Origin: Paramacrobiotus metropolitanus
Lineage: Eukaryota; Tardigrada; Eutardigrada; Parachela; Macrobiotidae
Length of the DNA stretch: 64,000 bases
Assembly (NCBI RefSeq): GCF_019649055.1
Contig: NW_026570304.1
Span: 310,001-374,000, forward strand
Direction of reading: 5' to 3'
Each line of letters begins with the position of its first letter. Positions within the stretch are counted from its first letter, which is position 1. The notes below the pieces were generated by a model. That model did not search any database. It saw only the letters and a program-made list of their open reading frames with translations, and was not told the DNA's origin. Below are positions 18,896 to 37,371 of this stretch, piece after piece. A program made the position numbers and the translations under genes.

Positions 18896-21800
18896 GCAAA
18901 CTGGCCCATCTCGCCATTTGATTTGATGTGGAAATTTTACATTAAAAATTGTCCGTCCGTCGTTATTTGTCCGTCATTATGTGTGTTGGTTGCTCGTCAG
19001 CCGTTTCGACAACTTGATGTCAGTGTTGGGATTGCGCTTTCCCTTTTCGGTTTTCACCTCCATTGGAAAATGGGTCTAAAAAAGGTACGTGAGCACAATG
19101 CAGCGCAGTCCGCGAACAGGAACTCTAGCTCCGCACAGCTGGTTTCGCTGGCAGCGTTGCCTTTCCCCGTTGCGTTGCGCTGAATCCTCCTTCACGGTGT
19201 ATCTCTTGTGAATGTGGGAAAAACGGGTGAGACGTGTGAAAAACGAACAAAAACAAATCAGCTGGTCGAAGTTTTCGGTAATAATATCATTTATTTCCTA
19301 AAACAGATAACTGACGGAATGGATTCTTCTCGTATTCATTACATTTGTAACAAAATTCAAGGATTTCTTGATGTGTGAATTGTGAAGCATGGCCTAGGGT
19401 TTTCCCATGTCGTTTTTGCGGTTGCACGTTAAATTTAAATGCTTTTGAGGAGATCGAATACTTCATCCAGTTGATTGTTTTTGTTCGTTTTAATTTTACT
19501 TATTTGGTTAAATTATCCATTGACCGCTTTGTTACAAATATTTTAATTAGTTTTGATTTGATTTATTTTGTTAAATTTTAATGATCTGCCATGTTACAGG
19601 TATTTTTAATGTGTTTGATTATTTTTTAATTTAACTTCTTTGTTAATACTGCGTTTCTTGTCTGTCGGTTGCAGGGCCTCAGCCTGGCATCCCTGGAGCT
19701 GATGGTGCATGAGACTGCGCTGGAGCTGGGCAAGCGCTGCGACACAGTCGATGTGTGGGATGCGTGTGGGCGGCTGTTGTTCGGGCGCATCGTGGATGTG
19801 GCGGAGAACGGACTGTACATCGACCTGCTGTGCGCGGGTCGGCGCCGCGAGCTGATCGCCTTCGGACGCATCTTTCACCTCCCCTATGGCGTTGGCTGTG
19901 ATCTGCAGGAGAACAACACGGAGGGTTAACGCTGGCCGATGGAGGTGCTGGTGCGTCCCCAGCCCCATTCTCCCTGGACGTGGGTCAGCGCTGAGCTGGC
20001 GCTGTACTCACCCACGCGGCTGCTCAACTGCATAAGCGCCAGTCCGCTGCAGCTGATCAACGCGTCGTGCGTGGCTGCCGGGCCCCTGCTGGTCGTCCAG
20101 AACACCCGCATCCGCTATCCGCCCATGGATCTGGACGTGACGAGCTGGAACCGCATGTTGGCCGGAGCGAGCGGGCCCCCTGGGAAGGCGGCGTTGCGGC
20201 GTTATTATGGGGATAAGTACGAGCGCGCCCTGGTCCGCCCCGGGGACTACGCCGCCGGCCGGGTGCAGTTGCCGGCATCGTGCGCCGCCGTTCCGAAGCC
20301 CGTGCAGCACTGTCTCCTGGAAGCCTGGCGGGGCCGCTACCGCAGCAGAGCCATGCAGCTTGGCTCCCGATCGGAGACCCGGCTTTGCGTTTGTGCGCCG
20401 TGTGGAGGACACTGACGCCGATTGGTATGTGGAGTACACGGACCAAAAGTGGCAGGACTGGCCCTACTGGGTAAGGCCCAAGGATGCTTTGATTGTCGTT
20501 GAAATTCAAACGTTTAATCCGGCGAGTCTTCTAATATTAATTCTGATATTTCTTAACTGAAAGTTCATAGGTCAGATTTGATATATTTGAAAGAACAATT
20601 TTTCCAGAACAGTTTCAAATGATTTCAAACTCGCGTAGGCCGTTTAAGGAGAATCTATACCATGGTAGCAAATAAGATTTTCAAAAATATACCGTGTAAT
20701 AAGCAGGGTTACGCCTATTACTGGGCGAAAGTTGGGTTTAGGTAGTTACAAAAAAGTTATTCGACGTTTTTCGTTGCCGACCAGCCCACCAGGGGCGATT
20801 CGGCGGGTTGGCGTATCTTCTACAGTAGTGCCACCTATAGTAAAAAATCAGTGAAAGAAAGATGCATCAACAAGCGCTTTCTTTCATTCTGGAATATGCC
20901 TTGTGGTTGTTATATTCCATGCGAGATTGCAAGTGTGACAGGAGCAGAGTGAGACAAGTCTCATGTTTACACAGTGAAAACGTATAGAGCATAACAAAGA
21001 CGTTATACAATGGAAAGACAATGCGCTTTCCCGTGAGTGCACACGAAAGAGTGGCCGAAGTCCACTCTTCGGTGTGGACACAATCAGTGTGGCGACACTG
21101 CAAGCGCAGAATCGGTAAGACCAAAGGAAAGCGCAAGTACAGAAAAAGGTTCTTCGTCACATCCTGAACAATTTTAGAAAACCAAATTTCTAAAATCACT
21201 AACAAATCGCAGCGATTTCAGAAAATTTCGAACTTTGATCAAACTACAGAAACATCATTTTTAAAAAGACTGTGAAGCGTTTTTATGAAAAATGTTTGCG
21301 CACCTTGATTAAATAAACCAAAGCGACTTCCGGTGTCGAAAAATTTGTTGTTTTCAATACCGGGTGGGTGTTTTTGAAAAATCGCTCCCCAATATTTTAG
21401 TCATCTATCGGAACATATTGCTGTGCTTGAGCGAAAAATTTAAAAAATCTGCTTGATTTGTTATTGTGTCCGTAAAATGACAACTTTAAATCAATAACTT
21501 TTACACTTTAAAATAATCGAATTGAGTGCAAACTTCTAATACATGTAGTGAAAATATCATTAGTGTTTGTCAAAAGATGTCGGATTTAAAAGCAGTCAAA
21601 AAATGTCGGAATCTGCAGAATTTCTACTTAATTTTGAAATGAATTTTTTTTAATGTTTGCATTTTGCGATCTTGAAGTTGTGATTGCGAGTACAAGCCTA
21701 TCAGTTAGTCCGTGCGCCTATCTGCCTGGCCGGATTTGGACGCGCTGATGTGGAGAAAATTACATTTTGTTTAACAGTTGAAATGCCGTTGTTGCAGATT

Positions 21801-23760
21801 GGCTTTAAAGAGGCGGCTGCGCGCCTTCAGCTGGCATTACCGCGGATGCTACGGATGCTGGACCTGTCCGTGGCCGCTTCCGGTGACGACTTTTTGCGCC
21901 CGTCCGTCCTGCGCCTGTCTGTCCCGATCCTGTCAGCAGTCTTCGCCCACCTGGATACGATCCAGCAGACGCGAGTGCGTCCCGTCTGCGCCCTCTGGGA
22001 TGGCGTGCTGCAGTCCGGCGTGCTGACCAACGTCCTCGTCATCGGGCCCAACAGCTACCCCACCGCCGACTACGCCCTCATGGCTACCATCCACCGCTGC
22101 TTCCGCACCACCACCCGTCACCTCATCGTCCGCGGAGGCGATCTGGACACGATTCTGAAGGTTGCCGGGATGGCGGCCCACTTCCCGGGGATCCGCGTGC
22201 CGGTAGTGCATCTCGTGCGTATGGAATGGCAGCTGTCCGTTCACCCCTGTCCGCACAACGACCAAACACACAACTCCTACCACAACTGTGTAGCGGACTT
22301 TGCAGGGGCGCTGCGTCGGCTGCCGGCCGCGGAAGCGGTGCTGTTGCAGTGCCGGGTGCGCCTGCTCAGTGTTGGCCCCCATTACACCGTGCAGGACCTG
22401 CCTAATCCGCACACGGTGGCTTACGTCATGGACGTTCCCGCCCACATTCCGCTGGCCCGACTGCAGCCAGCCAGCGCCGATCTGGCCGGGACGGTTTGGA
22501 CGCTAATCGCGGAGGGCGTCGAGTGGTGCGTGACCGGGGAGGAGCAGCGGCGGGCGGCCGAATGGGTGGCCTGGATCAAGGGCAACCGCGTGCAGATGCA
22601 GCTCAGCCCGCAGCATTGGGAACGGAGAATGCTGGAAATGCTGTGCCAGGTACCGTTGCAGCTTTCTGCTGCCTTTTACTCATAGCAAGTATAACTTCAA
22701 GGGTTATCCCGCTACTCCCACCGGACTCCATTAAGCATTAGCAGAGTTAGCTTACCGGGTTATGGCCGAATACCTTTGCTCAGTTTAAAGGAATTTTTTC
22801 TCCGCTGTTGGGTTAGACTGACGCGGGTGTTGCGGAAAAAGACAGTGGACGATAGTTTTTAATGTTGTGCTGTTGCCTTGCAGACGCTGTGTGGGCTGCA
22901 GGCGCTGGGCCTGGACGGTTCGCCGGGATTAGGCGGCTGTCGGTGCACGGATGCGGTCTTCCGTCTGCCCATGTCGCTCTCCCAGCTGTCGCCGTTGGCG
23001 CTGGGCTGCGTGGTGCAGTGCGCCGAGGAGTGGGAGCTGCGCTGCGAAGATCGCCTGTGGTACGGGGATGAGGCGGGGCGGGCATGGTTCCGGGCTCTCG
23101 TGGAGACGCGCGCCTGGCGTCCCTGAACATGCCCCCGACGAAAAAGACGCCGTCCAGTTGACGCACTATTTTGCTAACTGATAAACCTTTTTCTGTAGTA
23201 TTTTTCCCGTTGCTGCTTCTTGTTTTCTTGCGCATGTTCGGTGTTTACTGCGAATTTGGTCGTTTGACTGCCGGTGGTTTTACAGTATGCATTTTTATAG
23301 ATCTGGTTTTATAGATTTTATAGTGCTGGTTATATAGATTTTTATTAATTGTCGTTTTCGCGATTTTTGTCGCGCAATGTTTTGCGGCCGGTTGGTGATA
23401 TTAATAGGCAGATACGAATACAAGGGAGTGATGGTTAGCGCTCTTGGTGTGGCCAGTTAATGCTCGTGTTCGAAGGAACTAAAATTATTATTTCCGTTGC
23501 GTTTCTGCTTATTATTGAATATTTATCGTATTGAATATAAGTAATTTGCAATGCTGCATATCCGAACAAAATGGCCATTTTTTCATGAGCGATTTTGCCG
23601 GTTTGTTTGCCTTTTTCATTTTTTATCTTAAATTACCAATAATTGTAATTTAGCTGCGGGTCATGCTATATCGAATACTCGTAGTAATAATAGTAACAAT
23701 AATAGTTATGTGGATCGGGAATTTTAAAAAATCTTTGATAGTTTTGAAGTGCTCAACAGT
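18895..23760 (+). repeat. Segmental duplication, copy 1 (partner 54030-57960)
   Basis: Coding and non-coding sequence here matches 54.0-57.9 kb in the same order and orientation. Examples are AACGCAGT-type flank text at 19099-19200 (CACAATGCAGCGCAGTCCGC) against 54327-54440, and GGTTAGCGCTCTTGGTGT at 23431 against 57490. The duplicated unit includes the family-2 F-box gene with its upstream flank and at least 500 bp downstream. Limits are approximate. Confidence 0.75.
19675..23126 (+). CDS. F-box-like protein, family 2 copy A
   Basis: Exon 1 (19675-20470) follows CGGTTGCAG and encodes module 1 (KRCDTVDVWDACGRLLFGRI, then FGRIFHLPYGVG), SPWTWVS, and module 2 (YERALVRPGDYAAGRVQLPA, then FVRRVEDTDADWYVEY), ending at donor TGG|GTAAGG. 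Exon 2 (21798-22649) follows GTTGTTGCAG and holds a divergent F-box (LSVPILSAVFAHLDTIQQTR, VCALWDGVLQSG) and a long helical region, ending CAG|GTACCG. Exon 3 (22884-23126) follows CCTTGCAG, reads TLCGLQALGLDGS and ends RAWRP. All joins are in phase 0. Exon 1 has a TAA at 19926-19928 where the paralogues have GAA, and a frame slip near 20350, so it may be a pseudogene; exons 2 and 3 are clean. An upstream first exon is probably missing from this model. Function is inferred only from the F-box. Confidence 0.65.
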
Positions 23761-25663: not shown

Positions 25664-25672
25664 GCACGTGTG

Positions 25673-25814
25673 TAACCGTCCAAAACGTCCGGACGTCTGA
25701 GACGTCCGGCGGACGTTTTGGCGCCTAAACCGTCCAAAACGTCCGAGGGCCGCCAAAACGTCCGCCGTAAATTTTGCCCACCCGATTTTTTTTTGTGTTT
25801 GCGTCGGATCGCAG
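25673..25814 (+). repeat. Left terminal inverted repeat, outer block
   Basis: It begins GTAACCGTCCAAAACGTCC and contains nested palindromes (GGACGTCTGAGACGTCC), then AAATTTTGCCCACCCGAT with a T run, and ends GTTTGCGTCGGATCGCAGCC. Nearly identical on the opposite strand to 31058-31201; the visible differences are a few substitutions and a shorter T run. Confidence 0.92.
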
Positions 25815-26278
25815 CCAGACGTTTCTGCCTGACCGTTAATTCGTCGCCGGACGTTCCAGCCTGACTGGTAATTCGTCGCCTGACGTTTTTGCCTGACCGG
25901 TAATTCGTTGCCGGACGTTTTGGCCTGACCGGTAATTCGGACCTAAACGTTTCAGCCTGACCGGTAATTCGTAGCCGGACGTTTCTGCCTGACCTGTAAT
26001 TCGTAGCCGGACGTTTCTGCCTGACCGGTAATTCGTAGCCTGACGTTTTTGCCTGACCGGTAATTCGTTGCCGGACGTTTTGGCCTGACCGGTAATTCGT
26101 AGCCGGACCTTTCAGCCTGACTGGTAATTCGTTGCCGGACGTTTCTGCTTTACCGGTAGTTCGTAGCCGGACGTTTCAGCCTGACTGGTAATTCGTAGCC
26201 GGACGTTTCTGGCTGACCGGTAATTCGTAGCCGGACGTTTCTGCCTGACCGGCAATTCGGACCCGGACGTTTTTGCCT
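25815..26278 (+). repeat. Left subterminal array of 32-bp units
   Basis: About 14-15 copies of a unit made of CCGGACGTTTCTGCCTGACC followed by GGTAATTCGTAG. Copies differ mainly at three spots: TTTCTG, TTTTTG or TTTTGG; CCGG or CTGG; GTAG, GTTG or GTCG. Same unit as at 30115-31055, inverted. Confidence 0.93.
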
Positions 26279-26280
26279 TC

Positions 26281-29111
26281 ATCAGTGCCGCTCAGCGGGT
26301 GTTGAAAAAACAGTTTCCTGAAATAAACGGATTGGAATCAACGTACGAGCACACGTTGCGGGGTACGGATAGTCTGTATGCACGCACCCAGGTGGTTCGT
26401 GACAAGTGTCACGAGCTAAATCAACAAAATCGTGATGGGACAGAGAGAAAGCTTCAAATCCTAAACATAAACGAAAATCATTGGGTGCTTGCACGGAACG
26501 ACCATTCGGGTGCCTCTAACTGCGTCATCGTAAACGATAGTCTGCCATCGCTGGGATGCGGAGAAGTAATGAAACAACAAATCGCGTCAGTATTTCGATT
26601 TACCGAAGACAGTTTCAAAATTGTAATTCCAAAGATGCCGACACAGCCTAACGGCACTGACTGTGGATTGTATTCCGTGGCAAACCTGGTGGAGAGATGT
26701 TTCGGTGTTGATCCAGCCACCAGAGAATACAACAATGAGGTAACCTTCTAGCTCACAGTGAACATGCAATTTGTGTCTAGAAAACGAAATTTAATTCTGT
26801 TTACTTCAACACAGGACATGCGTCCGCATTTCTTGCGCTGCCTAGAAGAGGAACGGTTTACGCCTTTCCCCAGCGTACCAGTAAAGCCAAAGCGGGATGC
26901 GGTTACCGAAGTGGTCCCGATTATGTGCGATTGCCGAATGCCAAAAATGTACAGCATCGAATGGACCGTAAAATGTGCGAAGTGCTCAAAAGAGTATCAT
27001 CAAGCGTGCGTTTCAAAATCTAAAAAAAACGGATAAGCTGATTCGTAATAAAAGCTGGAAATGCTCGATTTGCGCCAATGAAAGTGAGTTTGGTAGGCGG
27101 AATAGCTCTAATTTACTCCTCATCTACTTTAGTTGTTTATGTACAGCTCGATTTCCAAAATGCGTTAATGCATACCGACCCGTAAACCGACCTCCATTTC
27201 TCTTTTGTAATTTTGACTGTGCGATAATAATCCTACAGAAAGGTCAAGTGAACTGTATAATTACAACAAACATGCACTTGTAGAGCTCAGCAACTCAAGT
27301 GGTACAACATCTAACCAGTTGCTGTTGCCGCAATCAGTTCAAGATTTTAGTGGATCTGAGCAACCCAACCCAGTTGCATCGCTGAACCAAGCAGAATCGT
27401 TCGACACACCTAAAAAAACTTTACCGCTGCCATCCTCAAACGACAAAGTATCGCTCCGACAGTGTAATTTCCTCTTGTCAGGACTGGACGTCCTCAAAGA
27501 AATGTTCACCGAGCAATCCGTAAACGCGCTGGAGCTCGATCTACTGAGTGACACACTCACCAACGCCGATCTTGTGGGATTCCGCGGAGCATTGCGACCC
27601 GACAGCGTTTTACACACCCTATCGTCGCTGCGGCCGAAGGAAAAGAAACAACTGATGTTTTCCAGGCTTGGAAATCTGGAAGCATCAGTCATGCACTTCA
27701 TTCACTACGAAGCCTGGTTTGTGTTGAAGGAAAGACTCACCGCAAAAACAACACTGTCTAAACTCGAGCAGGATAAAAGTGAGTTGTTCCTAAAAGATAA
27801 TACTGATTCGATTTCCATACTGTATAAAACTTTGGCTCCTTCGCAATTAATGCACAGTTTTCCTGTGAACAGAACTTAAAATAAAATTGACAATTATGTG
27901 TATAGAGGGTACCTACAGAACAATGACTTAACGGCAGCTTCTCTTTAGGAACTGAAATGGATAGAAAGGTATTGTGGTATGAAGTGCATGAAAGTCTGAT
28001 GCTTACGTACGAGGATTGGATTGCATTACGTGAGGAAAGAGGGCTCGTTTCAACAATGTGATGAGAGCCGTTCAATGGCTGCTAAATCATCAGTTTCCTT
28101 CGGCCTTAATGCTACCGATTCCTGTTGATTTCCGAGAACCAGAAGACGCCAGTAACAGTTACACCATTGACTCCATTGTCGAATTGCGGAGGCATGACTG
28201 CGGTATCGGCCTTGGAAACGAACGTCGAAAAACGCAGCTTTTGCAACTTTCGGACACCAGATGGATCATTGTATCAAATAATCATGGACACTCTTCAGAT
28301 ATTGTGGACGTTTACGACTGCTTAACACCATACACGGACATTTTTGTGGAGTCGCAAATCGCGTCGCTCTTTCGGTTTGCTCAAACCGACGTCATGCGGT
28401 TGCGCTGGAAAGACATCAACCTTGAAGATGAACTGGACAATTCTGGAATTTATGCAATTGCCTGCCTCACGGATATGTTCTACGGATTCGACCCCTGTAA
28501 AAAAGAGTACAATGAAAAGGTAAAGTTGTGCTTTTGATTTCTGTTGACCGTTCGACCGTAATGGTGATACATTTTTACAGGTGATGAGAAACCATTTGGT
28601 AACGTGTCTGGATAGCAAGAAACTGACTCCTTTTCCGAGCAAAACCAGAATGATAAGCAGCAAATCCGGCGTAACCAACGAAGTTTCGTTACGGTTGATA
28701 TGCCGTTGCAGAATGCCTTTGTTATATGACGCAGAGCTAATCTGGACATGCGTGAAATGCAACAAGGTTTTTCATCGTTCCTGTGTCACCAAAGTCAAGG
28801 CTCAGGACCCCAGCAAACTTAAAGTGAAAAACTGGAACTGCAGCGAATGCAAAAGTGAGAAAAAATATATTGGCAGACCAACTAGTAAACTGCGTGATCA
28901 ATTCAATAAAATTTAATGACCGACATTTTAAAACTGTAAAGACGGTCGAAGTGAAAAGGAGCATAACTTTTTACATGGGTACTTCCTTGCAGAGAAATCG
29001 GAACCAGAGGAAAAAGTGGCGCTCGGACTCGACATAATCACAGCGAGCCAAGGAGATCGCATTGCCAGAGTCATGACCAGACGCCGACGACAAAATTCAC
29101 AAGACGCGTAG
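26281..29111 (+). CDS. Tandem Ulp1/C48 protease-PHD finger protein, six exons
   Basis: Ulp1/SENP-type cysteine proteases cut SUMO or related modifiers; PHD fingers usually bind histone tails. Exons: A 26281-26739 (Ulp1-1), B 26815-27083 (PHD-1), C 27284-27778 (helical linker), D 27949-28519 (linker, Ulp1-2), E 28581-28854 (PHD-2), F 28993-29111 (EPEEKVALGLDI.., basic tail RRRRQNSQDA, stop). Ulp1-1 has His (NENHW), Asp (VNDSL), Gln and Cys (PTQPNGTDCG). Ulp1-2 has Arg for His (DTRW), Glu for Gln and Ser for Cys (LDNSG), keeping only Asp (VYDC), so it should be dead. Both PHDs show C4HC3 spacing (CDCRMPKM, CAKCSKEYHQAC, WKCSIC; CRCRMPLL, CVKCNKVFHRSC, WNCSEC). Introns A/B and D/E are phase 0; B/C and E/F are phase 1. 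The frame slips at the A8 run 27022-27029 and near 28050. The 5' end is lost in the terminal repeat. Confidence 0.8.
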
Positions 29112-29394
29112 ACCACTGTTCCTTTTGCACCATTTTTATTGCTTGATGCTCCAGTAATGTTGCTGTCTACGAAATTAATCAACCGACAAATGAAAAAGTG
29201 CAAGTTTTCAAAATTTCAACACCAGTTCTTTGCAACTAGTTTCCGAATGAGTCAACCTTAAAAGATGAACAAGTTAACCTTCACGTTCACACCTGTGGCA
29301 CGTTTCATACCAAAGAAAAAGCGAATTGTTCTTTCTGTTCTCATATTCACAATTGACATCTATATACAGGCTGTAGGCAACATGTAGTCCTATC

Positions 29395-29770
29395 GGTAGT
29401 CACCTGGCTTCTTGGGTTTGTTAGGTTTTCTTAGGATGTATACAGGATGTCTACAACGGTGTTTTCAGGTTGTCTACAGCCGTCGACCACTGTATACAGC
29501 CAGCCCTCCCTGGATCCAGCTGGATACTCAGCTTGTACACACCGGAAGTCATCCGTAGACACCACTGTAAACATACTGTAGTCCCATAATTTCTCAGAAT
29601 TTTTTGGATGTATACAGGTTTCTACAGGGTGACTGCTGAAGTCTAACGCTGTATACAGCCTGCCATTTCTAGGTTCAGCTAGATGCTCGGCTTGTATCGT
29701 GAATATGCCGGGAGTCATCCGTAGACAGACCCTAGACACCACTGCAGACATGCTGTAGTCACCTGTTTTT
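29395..29770. repeat. Two-copy repeat of about 175 bp inside the transposon
   Basis: Segments at about 29430-29585 and 29605-29765 share the same order of words: GGATGTATACAGG, TCTACA, CTGTATACAGCC, TCATCCGTAGACA, then ACATGCTGTAGTC. They are diverged. Many TATACAG, GTCTACA and TGTAGAC words also make short inverted matches within the block. Confidence 0.7.
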
Positions 29771-30114
29771 TAGGCGTTTCTGGATGACAGGGCATTTACA
29801 GATTATCTACAGATGACTAGAGTGACTACAAGAAGAAACAAAAACGCTCCAGCTTTTTTTTGGTATGAAACGTTCCGTATATGAGGTTCAGATATCGGCA
29901 ATATGTAAATCTAAGATAAAAAAAAGCAAATCGGTGCGAACTTGTTTTAAATAAGGTACACAAAAAGCGTACAGGGGCCTAACAACTGAGAAACGGCAAA
30001 GAAGCGTGAAAACTCAGGAAAGATAAGGTAAGAATCCAAGTTCAAGGAAAAAAGGTTTTGATTAAAGCCCAAATTAAGAAGAAAAATCCGTACCAGTCAG
30101 GTCGAAACGTCTTG

Positions 30115-31055
30115 TTATAAACCACCGGTCCGGTAGAGAAGGCCGGCTACGAATTACCAGTCAGGCTGAAACATCCGGCTACGAATTACCAGTCAGGCTG
30201 AAACATCCGGCTACGAATCACCAGTCAGGCTTAAACGTCCGGCTACGAATTACCAGTCAGGCTGAAACGTCCGGCTACGAATTACCGGTCAGGCAGAAAC
30301 GTCCGGCTACGAATTACTAGTCAGGCTGAAGCGTCCGGCGACGAATAAACGGTCAGGAAGAACGTCCGGCTACGAATTACCGGTCAGGCTGAAACGTCCG
30401 GCTACGAATTACCAGTCAGGCTGAAACGTCCGGCTCCGAATTACCGGTCAGGCAGAAACGTCCGGCTACGAATTACCAGTCAGGCTGAAACATCCGGCTA
30501 CGAATCACCAGTCAGGCTTAAACGTCCGGCTACGAATTACCAGTCAGGCTGAAACGTCCGGCTACGAATTACCGGTCAGGCAGAAACGTCCGGCTGCGAA
30601 CTACCAGTCAGGCTGAAGCGTCCGGCGACGAATTACCGGTCAGGCCAAAACGTCCGGCAACGAATCACCGGTCAGGCAGAAACGTCCGGCTACGAATTAC
30701 CAGTTAGGCTGAAACGTCCGGCGACGAATTAACGGTCAGGCAGAAACGTCCGGCTGCGAATTACCAGTCAGGCAGGAACGTCCGGCTACGAGTTACCGGT
30801 CAGGCAGAAACGTCCGGCTACGAATTACCGGTCAGGCAAAAACGTCCGGCAACAAATCACCGGTCAGACAGAAACGTCCGGCTACGAATTACCGGTCAGG
30901 CCAAAACGTCCGGGTCCGAATAACCGGTCAGGCAGAAACGTCCGGCTATGAATTACCAGTCAGGCTGAAACGTCTGGCTACAAATTACCAGTCAGGCTGA
31001 AACGTCCGGCTACGAATTACCGGTCAGGCTGAAACGTCCGGCTACGAATTACCGA
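30115..31055 (-). repeat. Right subterminal array of 32-bp units
   Basis: About 28-29 copies of the reverse complement of the left unit (CCGGCTACGAATTACCGGTC plus AGGCAGAAACGT). The right array is about twice as long as the left one. Runs of identical variant units recur (CCAGTCAGGCTTAAACGT appears at about 30217 and 30509), which shows block duplication within the array. Confidence 0.93.
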
Positions 31056-31057
31056 TC

Positions 31058-31201
31058 CGGCTGCGATCCGACGCAAACACAAAAAAATCGGGTGGGCAAA
31101 ATTTACGGCGGACGTTTTGGCGGCCCCCGGACGTTTTTGACGGTTTAGTCGCCAAAATGTCCGCCGGACGTCTCAGACGTCCGGACGTTTTGGACGGTTA
31201 C
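31058..31201 (-). repeat. Right terminal inverted repeat, outer block
   Basis: Reverse complement of 25673-25814, starting GGCTGCGATCCGACGCAAAC and ending GGACGGTTACAC. The next bases, ACGTGC, continue the match to the left flank for a few positions. Confidence 0.92.
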
Positions 31202-31209
31202 ACACGTGC

Positions 31210-34459: not shown

Positions 34460-37371
34460 CCAGCCATGCACTAGTAAGTTCCTTTGTACTTTACCCCTCA
34501 ATCATTGTGCTACCTCCTATCCATTCTTTTATGGCTGCTGCTCCTACATCGAATCTGCATTACAAGAAAGATGGCACGTTGGATTTGCGGTTTAAAACAT
34601 CCAGGACTGCACGGGGAGCCCAACAAGGTCCGCCAATGCCATCGGGTTCCTCCGCTGCGCCAGTCTTCCTTTCCCAATTGCAGACGCACCCGCCTATGCC
34701 TTCACGTCTTCCGAAGAATGCTCGGTTTGTCTGCGCACAAGCCTTTGGCTACGCCTTAAGAAAGTGCTGTTCGCAGAATGTGTTTGAGTCATGGAGAGAG
34801 CTCCTCCTGTTCCCTAAGAAAGCATTCGTCCTACCTGCTACACGCCAGCTGCGAAAAGAATCCCTTACGACAGTGATTAAGCGCAACGCTAGCAGCTTAT
34901 CTGCTACCACCCCCTCATGGCTCAACAGCAAAGACGAGGCAGTAGAAGCACATCACAGTTCGACGCGGAAAGAATGCGGAGACAAGTAGCTAATGCTTTT
35001 CAGTGTGGAAATACAAAAGGGGCTATTCGGGCTGTCATCTCCCAAGACTCTGTAGCGCCACTAAACCAAGCCACCATTACTGCCCTACAAGAAAAGCACC
35101 CTCCTCGACCAGCAGCAGCTCAGCTACCTTTACCGCCCCATGCAGAAACCCCTTTTCAGGTTTCGCCCAAAGAAGTAATGAACAGCGTTTACAGTTTCCC
35201 GGCAGGTTCAGCAGGAGGATACTCTGATCTGCGTCCCCAACATGTGAAGGATATGCTAGGCAGACGGGATGATGTGGAGAGTGATCTCTGCAGTACACTG
35301 ATGCAGTTTATGGACTTGATTCTAAGCGGCGGTGTCCCTGATGACGTTTGTCCTTATTTTTACGGAGCGAAACTGATCGCACTCAGTAAGCCTGACGGTG
35401 GTATTCGTCCTATCGCAGTTGGGGACACATTGCCTCGGATGGCATCAAAAATTGTGGCGGCGAGATGTCAGGATGAAATTGGCCGTTTACTGAAACCTAT
35501 TCAGCTCGGTTTTGGAACGAAAGGAGGAGCCGAAGCAATCGTACACGCGACCAGCCGCTTTTTGCAGTTTAATCACGGCGGGGTGCGGATACTGGTCAAA
35601 CTTGATTTCCGCAATGTCTTTAATATGATCGGCAGAGATGTAGTATTACGCGCAGTAAGCAAGTACATCCCTGCATACTTTAACTACTTTATGAAGTCAT
35701 ATGGAGAATGGTCACAATTACTATGCGGAGATGAATTATTGATATCACAGTGGGGAGTGCAGCAAGGAGATCCAGTTGGTCCACCGGCTTTTTATCTCGC
35801 AGTTTTGGAGCTCCTGAGAAAGCTGAAAAGCATTTTGAAAGCTGCTTACCTGGATGATGTCACGTTAGGAGGCATTGAAGAACAAATCATAGAAGATATC
35901 GAAACGGTTATTCAAGAAGGTGCTGAGCTGGGACTGGTTTTGAATTTTTCGAAATGCGAAGTCTTTATTTTTGGTGGTGACGAGAACAAAAGATCGCAAG
36001 CAAAAGAAAATCTGCTTCGCAAGTGGCCGCAACTCATCATTCTTGAACAGGACAATTTGTCAGTTTTAGGAGCAGCTTTGAACGAAGTTTCGGTGCCCGT
36101 TTTTTTTGAAGACCAAAATCCAAGATTTGAAAGTTATGGTGGAACGTTTACAGTTTATGCCATCACATCACGCACTTTATTTGTTGAGAAATTGTTTCGC
36201 GATTCCGAAGTTAATTTACCTGCTACGTACAAGTCCATGTTACGAATGTCCGGACATGTTACGAAGTTTTGATGAAATCCTACGTGGCGCAGTGCAAAGG
36301 ATTACCAACGCAGACATATCTGATATTTTATGGCTACAGATGAATTTGCCATTTCGACGGGCGGGTCTCGGAATTCGAAGCGCAGATATGCTAGCTCTTC
36401 CCGCTTTCATAGCGTCGGCATATTCTGTGCAAACCTTGGCTTCCGGGATTTTTCCAGCCTATGATGATGGTTTTATTGATGCTGTAGTTCAGAAGTGGGT
36501 TGATCGCTACGCGTGCACGCAACTGGACGAATTGGCTTGTAAGCATCAGTCGGCATGGGATAAACCTGGTATCAAACAGATGTATTCTTTTGCGCGTTTA
36601 CATTCATACAGTGATAATGTGAAGCGAGCAGTTTTCCTGGCTGCATCTGAGCCGGAATCTGGCGCATGGTTAAACGCCTTACCCGTCCCATCACTTGGTA
36701 ATTTTCTCAATGATGAGCAGCTGCGAATAGCTGTTGGCCTCCGATTTGGCATGGACATTGTTCGGGAGCATCAGTGTGTGAGCTGCGGAACCAGAGTGCA
36801 GCCAAATGGACATCATGGTCTTTCTTGCTTGTACAGTAAAGGTCGATGGAGTCGGCATTGTGAAATGAACAGGATTGTGGAAAAATCGTTCTCAGCAGCG
36901 GGTGTTCCGTGCCAATTGGAACCTCCGGGAATGTGCGGACAGAACGGCAAACGTCCGGATGGTGTTACTCTAGTTCCTGTGCGGGACGGCCGTATGGTGT
37001 GGGATGCTCCGTGCTCCTGTACGGTTGCGTCTTCTTATGTTGACCGTTCTGCAAGGCAGGCAGGTTCAGCGGCACGAGTTGCTGAATCTCATAAACGGAA
37101 CCACTACCGCTTCTTACAGCCGCCGTATTCCTTTTATCCTGTTGTATGCGAAACCTTTGGGGTGCAGAGCGAGTCGACGAAGGAACTTTTTAAGTTTTTA
37201 GGTTGTAGAATTTTTCAAAAAACGGGTGAAGCGCGTTCGAGTTCGTTTTTGAAACAGCGCTTCAGCATTGCCGTTGTTCGTGGTAATGCGGCGGCAGTTT
37301 CGGGCACTTTGCCGCGTGTTAAACAGTTCAATAACGCTAATGATGGTATTGAATGTTTTGGTAGTACCTAA
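34460..37371 (+). pseudogene. Non-LTR retrotransposon, RT plus restriction-like endonuclease
   Basis: A single polyprotein broken by frameshifts. The N-terminal part (about 34520-34960) includes PTSNLHYKKDGTLDLRFKTS and ALRKCCSQNVFESWRELLLF. The reverse transcriptase (about 34980-36100) has PKEVMNSVYSFPAGSAGGYS, KPDGGIRPIAVGD, VKLDFRNVFN, QWGVQQGDPVGPPAF and the catalytic box AYLDDVTLGG. The C-terminal part (36106-37371) has a CCHC knuckle (CVSCGTRVQPNGHHGLSC) and a PD-(D/E)XK-like nuclease (GKRPDGVTL, MVWDAPCSC, ESHKRNHYRF). That order fits REL-endonuclease non-LTR elements (R2/CRE/NeSL group), many of which are site-specific. The frame slips between about 34920 and 34980, and at a T8 run 36100-36107. 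The 3' UTR has AATAAAG at about 37419 and an A-rich end before AACGTT. A 5'-truncated relative lies at 51.6-51.96 kb. Confidence 0.85.

Follow-up and report, generated by a model that had tools for sequence, protein, structure and literature searches.

The closest described relatives of the element analysed here are the Ginger1 transposons, which combine a Gypsy-like integrase (DDE, GPY/F) with TGTNR ends and introns (Bao, Kapitonov and Jurka 2010, PMC2836005). According to the available parts of that paper, Ginger1 transposases carry a C-terminal Ulp1 or OTU protease, Ginger1-9_HM additionally has a PHD finger, and the target duplications are 4-bp CCGG/CCGT; Table 1 gives Ulp1 or Ulp1 plus PHD by type, and a second or dead Ulp1 is not named there. 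Why several kinds of transposase carry Ulp1 or OTU proteases was raised as a question in the same paper. Elsewhere, target duplications are given as 4 bp for Ginger1, 4 or 5 bp for Ginger2 and 6 bp for Polinton and GingerRoot (PMC10045372). Yeast Ulp1 itself has been studied by mutation: the Cys-to-Ser enzyme is inactive and a tight SUMO trap with a Kd of 12.8 nM, whereas D451N abolishes SUMO binding (PMC3216068). The C580S variant is a substrate trap, also in the form of UTAG (PMC3216068, PMC5774762).

The window, that is the whole stretch of DNA that was analysed, comprises 64,000 nucleotides of the tardigrade Paramacrobiotus metropolitanus. The original prediction was that it encodes one transposon protein in which an active-looking and a dead Ulp1 module are each followed by a PHD finger, and that no protein with this double arrangement was known to have been described. 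We know of no internal live/dead Ulp1 pair from earlier work, and an open-licence literature search of titles and abstract starts gave no tandem or dead Ulp1 in a transposon among the matches listed. The parent combination of integrase, Ulp1 and PHD, however, was described in 2010 as Ginger1. What is new is the live/dead Ulp1 pair, together with 6-bp target duplications where Ginger1 makes 4-bp ones. The family is a recurring variation on a known transposon type, in which the case for maintenance of the dead module is strong and the case for its role is weak.

A Ginger1-like transposon with 6-bp target duplications

The window contains a Ginger1-like DNA transposon of 5,532 bp (about 5.5 kb) at 25671-31202, enclosing the interval 26281-29111 (Table 1). 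It is flanked on both sides by CACGTG, a 6-bp target duplication. Its repeat arrays form inverted arms of 470 nt that are 88% complementary, and its interior holds six exons, bordered by GT-AG and consistent in phase, that all read in one direction.

Table 1. Parts of the transposon in the window
Feature	Position	Strand	Remarks
Left terminal inverted repeat	25671..25800	+	TGTAACC start; 96% match to right end
Left 32-bp tandem-repeat array	25809..26280	+	Inverted copy of right array
Ulp1 module 1, 5'-truncated, H67 D86 Q122 C128 intact	26281..26739	+	Pfam C48 E=1.2e-4
PHD finger 1 exon, with frame broken by one base near 27029	26815..27083	+	
Domain Nd2, without Pfam match	27239..27778	+	Precedes Ulp1 module in single-unit relatives too
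Exon of Ulp1 module 2, a pseudo-protease with R D E S; frame broken near 28054	27949..28519	+	
PHD finger 2 exon	28581..28854	+	
C-terminal tail exon with stop, LDIITASQxDRIARVxTRRR	28993..29111	+	Single occurrence in element
Right 32-bp tandem-repeat array	30091..31063	-	
Right terminal inverted repeat, GGTTACA end	31077..31202	-	

The six-exon protein that had been proposed for this interval stands in its GT-AG borders and phases, but the copy in the window is damaged. Compared with a copy on C1 near 4.43 Mb, to which it is 97.6% identical over 4.1 kb, it has two one-base frame breaks, one of which (near 27029) disrupts PHD1 and the other (near 28054) the Ulp1-2 exon. It also lacks a start, as well as the integrase and the first domain that are both present at loci C252 and C58, and module 1 begins abruptly where the left array ends. 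This copy cannot make the double-Ulp1 protein, and the live/dead design holds for the family, not for the window copy. In the C1:4.43 Mb copy, module 2 is broken at other places and the beginning of module 1 is missing.

All loci compared come from one genome (169.8 Mb, 533 contigs). Searches with modules 2 and 1 gave 15 and 29 matches, respectively, each including the query; the module 1 matches at C27, C31, C14, C1:454680 and C19:443976 were left unread. Both units occur in the same order and on the same strand at four loci, namely the window locus (C84), C252, C58 and C1:4.43 Mb. The most complete is C58, with 11,551 bp between its terminal inverted repeats (TIRs), 121 identical bases in the TIRs, and the order integrase, first domain, module 1, PHD1, module 2, PHD2 and a single tail; it is the one locus where every listed part was read open. 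C252 has the same order plus Nd2, a domain that was looked for and not found in C58, and its integrase is damaged. With the rve profile C252 reaches 32.1 bits, just under the cut-off of 32.6. Locus C48 has Nd2, module 2, a frame-broken PHD2 and the tail inside its own inverted repeats, without module 1, and C443 and C11 have a PHD2-like exon plus tail, with no Ulp1 match in the stretch fetched. Since no target duplication matches at the ends of C58, two copies may have been combined in this locus. No relatives turned up in viral contigs scanned with the module 1 profile or with C58 module 2. An Hsp70/BiP-like gene, recognised by eye (L010, 2998-4390, minus strand), directly adjoins one end of the C58 element.

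The parent type is a Ginger1-like cut-and-paste transposon. The likeness to Ginger1 consists of the integrase, TGTNR ends, introns, C-terminal Ulp1 and PHD. An integrase core is present in elements with inverted ends: the C1:3.58 Mb copy scores 40.0 bits with the rve profile (E=4.9e-10, cut-off 32.6), and its integrase stretch shares 98% identity with the one in C58, where D, D and E, an HHCC-like pattern (YHG / GHARR / CDVC) and a GPF motif (GPFKVLKL) were read by eye. The order of parts in C58 and C252 places Ulp1 C-terminally. The left end is TGTAA in 17 of 19 close pairs of ends (TGCAA and TGCGA in the others), and also in the window element, C48, C1:4.43 Mb and C58. The differences from Ginger1 are the two Ulp1-PHD units, one of them dead, the long arrays of 31- or 32-bp repeats that lie inward of the ends, and the 6-bp target duplications with a central CG.

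The duplications were taken from 23 elements read at both ends, comprising 19 close pairs among the matches listed and the elements of the window, C48, C1:4.43 Mb and C58. An exact 6-bp duplication was found in 14, of which 13 have a central CG; four were one base off, and five, including C58, were two or more off. Among the 19 pairs, an exact end match of six bases occurred in 12, and matches of 3, 4, 5, 7 and 8 bases in 0, 1, 0, 0 and 0, respectively, while flanks of different elements gave a six-base match in 1 of 342 comparisons. On these counts, a 4-bp duplication of the Ginger1 type was rejected. Because the domain set and ends fit and the target duplication differs, the label Ginger1-like is preferred to Ginger1, and the 6-bp duplications suggest that target spacing has changed among integrases with the Ginger1 domain set.

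Duplications of 6 bp and an integrase-related transposase are shared with GingerRoot/IS3EU and Polinton (PMC10045372). As described in the available text of that paper, though, GingerRoot/IS3EU is without the HHCC motif, IS3EU has TA..TA ends, and GingerRoot mostly has these and only occasionally TG..CA; Ulp1 and PHD do not appear in that text. The elements found here have TG..CA ends in 19 of 19 pairs. Polintons carry a DNA polymerase gene, DNA polymerase B being their defining feature. A Polinton was rejected on the forward frames between the arrays of C58, where the longest ORF (240 aa) is Ulp1-2 and not a polymerase.

Other elements in the same genome were seen in passing. Many short ones, with 0.24 to 1.7 kb between paired ends, have the common ends and the NNCGNN target preference, and look like non-autonomous copies. 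L026 (1-3305; C1:3.582-3.587 Mb) derives from the C58 type by deletion and retains only the integrase between its two ends, where the duplications differ in one base (GACACT/GACGCT). The single-unit elements L005, L006 and L007 have 42-bp tandem repeats instead of 31- or 32-bp ones.

Catalytic residues of the two Ulp1 modules

Modules 1 and 2 of the window are 153 aa each and share 26% identity, and a module 1 query recovers module 2 in the 170-Mb genome search (E=2.9e-10). Two homologous Ulp1 modules, each followed by a PHD-like exon, are thus confirmed, and so are the proposed catalytic residues at codon level. Module 1 has H67, D86, Q122 and C128, with codons from 26479, 26536, 26644 and 26662, against R67, D86, E122 and S128 in module 2, with codons from 28259, 28316, 28424 and 28442. 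A profile built on eight intact Ulp1 exons of the same genome matches yeast Ulp1 (1euv) with E=1.3e-7, and H, D, Q and C are in register. With the Pfam C48 model, module 1 of the window scores above the cut-off (22.4 versus 20.7 bits), module 1 of C252 and C58 below it (16.9 and 17.4 bits), and module 2 of the window, C252 or C58 gives no match.

Module 2 is nevertheless a probable Ulp1 member, as indicated by a profile comparison with the intact members (hhalign probability 99.9, E=1.8e-32) and by a low-confidence model for which Ulp1 entries are the best PDB matches. AlphaFold models built on alignments of two rows were of low quality, with a mean pLDDT of 52.3 (module 2) and 41.4 (module 1). 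The structure search, run with the module 2 model only, gave Ulp1 entries as its top three matches, with probabilities of 0.98 to 1.00 and E-values of 0.0056 to 0.0098, which is weak support; the module 2 sequence alone found no match among PDB sequences. For the PHD fingers, the Pfam cut-off of 24 bits is exceeded in C58 (28.0 for PHD1, 25.8 for PHD2), and the scores fall below it in the window (18.7 and 20.6), C252 (22.4 and 22.0), PHD1 of C1 (19.5) and C245 (18.2).

The same division between the modules is seen at the other loci. The His-Asp-Gln-Cys set is present in module 1 of the window, C252 and C58; the C1 copy is without the part that holds His, and C55 is partial. All four residues are also found in 12 of 12 aligned single-unit relatives (C245, C419 and L015 to L024), and in L025, which was read outside the alignment as a near copy of L024. 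For L015 to L025, 5 kb around each was read; L018/L019, L021/L022 and L024/L025 are near copies, and C35 was left out of the scoring for its broken frame. Module 2 reads R-D-E-S in the window, C1 and C48, R-D-D-S in C252 and H-D-Q-S in C58. Serine thus replaces cysteine and Asp is retained at all five loci, whereas His and Gln are retained in C58 only and are replaced by Arg and an acidic residue at the other four. Since Ser is common to all five and C58 keeps His and Gln, it seems that Cys was lost first and His and Gln later. The loss is old, and the protein stayed constrained.

Origin of the pair and the number of chains

In a tree of Ulp1 sequences built without the partial C55, which has an in-frame stop, and without L019 and L022, which nearly duplicate L018 and L021, the module 1 rows form one group across elements (94/94) and so do the module 2 rows (100/99). 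The pair therefore predates the divergence between C58 and the C84/C252 type. How it arose is a separate matter. Units of two element lineages may have merged (or an old duplication may have been followed by losses) instead of a duplication within one lineage, in which case the dead C-terminal unit would be orthologous to the unit that is active in C245 and C419. We give this origin, including the orthology, slightly less than an even chance. A tree of Ulp1 plus PHD joins module 2 to C245/C419 with 87/89, short of the threshold set by the program, and weakly rejects a grouping of modules 1 and 2 as one clade (p-AU 0.04). In addition, Nd2 matches the Nd domain of C419, C35 and C245, and the tail stands after unit 2. 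With Ulp1 alone, however, the common clade is not rejected (p-AU 0.25), branches are long, and one row of the Ulp1 plus PHD tree is chimeric. That single-unit relatives exist with all catalytic residues, and that one tree places module 2 nearer two of these than module 1, goes halfway against the original prediction. A merger would be compatible with the reading that we consider fairly probable, namely a Ginger1-like transposase with a live and a dead Ulp1-PHD unit of which the window holds a defective copy.

A second question is whether the two units are parts of one protein. The alternative is that an integrase-Ulp1-PHD gene is followed by a separate Ulp1-PHD gene. Single-unit elements do end in PHD plus tail: in C245, C419 and C35 the PHD is followed by a DIITASQ-like tail match. 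Also on this side, C48 has unit 2 without unit 1. In C84, C252, C58, C1 and C48, on the other hand, the tail was matched once each, after PHD2, and none was found after PHD1 at the four paired loci. The gap from PHD1 to the next exon is 155 bp in the window.

The intron phases also speak to this point. The intron between Ulp1 and PHD is in phase 0 in both units of the window, C252 (unit 2 read by eye) and C58, and in C245 and C419. Phase 1 is found at the PHD1-Nd2, Nd2-Ulp1-2 and PHD2-tail borders in the window and C252, and phase 1 donors follow PHD1 in C58 and the PHD in C419. Phase 1 acceptors, read by eye, precede Ulp1-1 in C252 and C58, Ulp1-2 in C58 and Ulp1 in C245 and C419. The donor after PHD1 is thus in phase 1 in C84, C252 and C58, and the next acceptor has the same phase (by eye in C58). 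A unit with phase 1 borders can be inserted without a change of frame, which favours one chain. The presence of a tail only after PHD2 and intron phases that fit one frame make it likely that both units contribute to one protein, and we are fairly confident that the live and the dead module sit in a single predicted chain. Two separate genes are improbable. Evidence on their side also comes from C58, where two AATAAA/ATTAAA signals follow PHD1, so that a short product from this locus is possible; one such signal lies in the Nd2 intron of the window, and the PHD1 intron of the window and of C252 showed none. The paired arrangement first proposed is supported by its four loci, single tail position, matching phases and grouping of module types, and is qualified by the signals behind PHD1 of C58.

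Selection on module 2 and possible roles of the pair

Module 2 could be a decaying relic without function, and two observations fit this: His and Gln were lost after Cys, and frames are broken in module 2 of C1, PHD2 of C48 and the window copy. However, C252, C48 and C58 have an open Ulp1-2 frame, and in comparisons of diverged copies dN falls far short of dS. The dN/dS ratio of module 2 is 0.185 to 0.267 in the three of six pairs for which it could be estimated (Nei-Gojobori; Fisher p on rounded counts), the three C58 pairs being saturated at synonymous sites. For window and C48, dN is 0.201 and dS 1.085, corresponding to 63.2 of 358 nonsynonymous versus 57.8 of 101 synonymous sites (p=4e-14). 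The values are 0.230 and 1.148 for C252 and C48 (p 5e-13), and 0.100 and 0.374 for window and C252 (p 2e-6), the pair for which module 1 gives 0.043 and 0.228 (p 3e-6). The dead module 2 is under purifying selection and has therefore long been maintained as a protein, which leaves the relic quite improbable and suggests that the dead module has a job of its own. A dead copy that is selected beside a live one would mean that binding, and not only cutting, is useful to the transposon.

A possible mechanism can be outlined. The fuller relatives would encode one long transposase, composed of integrase, live Ulp1-PHD, dead Ulp1-PHD and a short tail, from one transcript that presumably spans both units. 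Module 1 should be a deconjugase, because in the intact members H, D, Q and C line up with those of yeast Ulp1; at the donor site or the target site, it would remove a ubiquitin-like modifier, most likely SUMO or a SUMO-like protein, from proteins present there. Module 2 with PHD2 could then act without catalysis, as a docking or allosteric partner keeping either modified chromatin proteins or module 1 in place. Docking of modified substrate as the job of the dead module is a tentative proposal.

The original proposal named internal dimerisation as one option and, as another, that one half binds a SUMO-like modifier which the other cuts. The second option is made more concrete by the yeast Cys-to-Ser trap, with which module 2 shares the same substitution and the same fold. 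The C580S trap is engineered, though, and possesses D451 and W448 (the Trp number following from the D451 numbering in 1euv), whereas module 2 is without both. The corresponding places are L and S in C252, S and V in C48, and H and S in C58, while module 1 of C252 and C58 keeps the Trp and has Gly at the D451 place with an acid next to it. A SUMO-trap role of module 2 is by analogy plausible but weakened, because the D451 place has no counterpart Asp. With W448 and D451 lost, the partner may be another ubiquitin-like protein or another surface, or module 2 may be an internal partner of module 1; activation of a live enzyme by a dead paralogue has been reported for another enzyme (PMC5201418). 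The most far-reaching version, a one-chain deSUMOylase with a natural Cys-to-Ser trap in which the dead half holds modified chromatin, PHD2 reads a histone tail and the live half strips modifiers, is unlikely; if true, the transposon would choose or prepare its own integration site. The live/dead domain pair is in any case a ready tool for asking which modifier and which chromatin mark matter.

That module 2 is a serine-type protease of the Ulp1 fold, at least in C58 where H, D and Q stand beside a Ser nucleophile, is scarcely credible in view of Arg for His at the other four loci and of the inactivation of yeast Ulp1 by the same Cys-to-Ser change (PMC3216068).

Two open frames of the window lie outside the element, both on the plus strand. 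One of 459 codons (34893-36272) resembles a non-LTR-type reverse transcriptase by eye (KPDGGIRPIAVG...). The other, of 333 codons in GC-rich DNA (21684-22685), is F-box-like by eye and may be a host gene beside the transposon.
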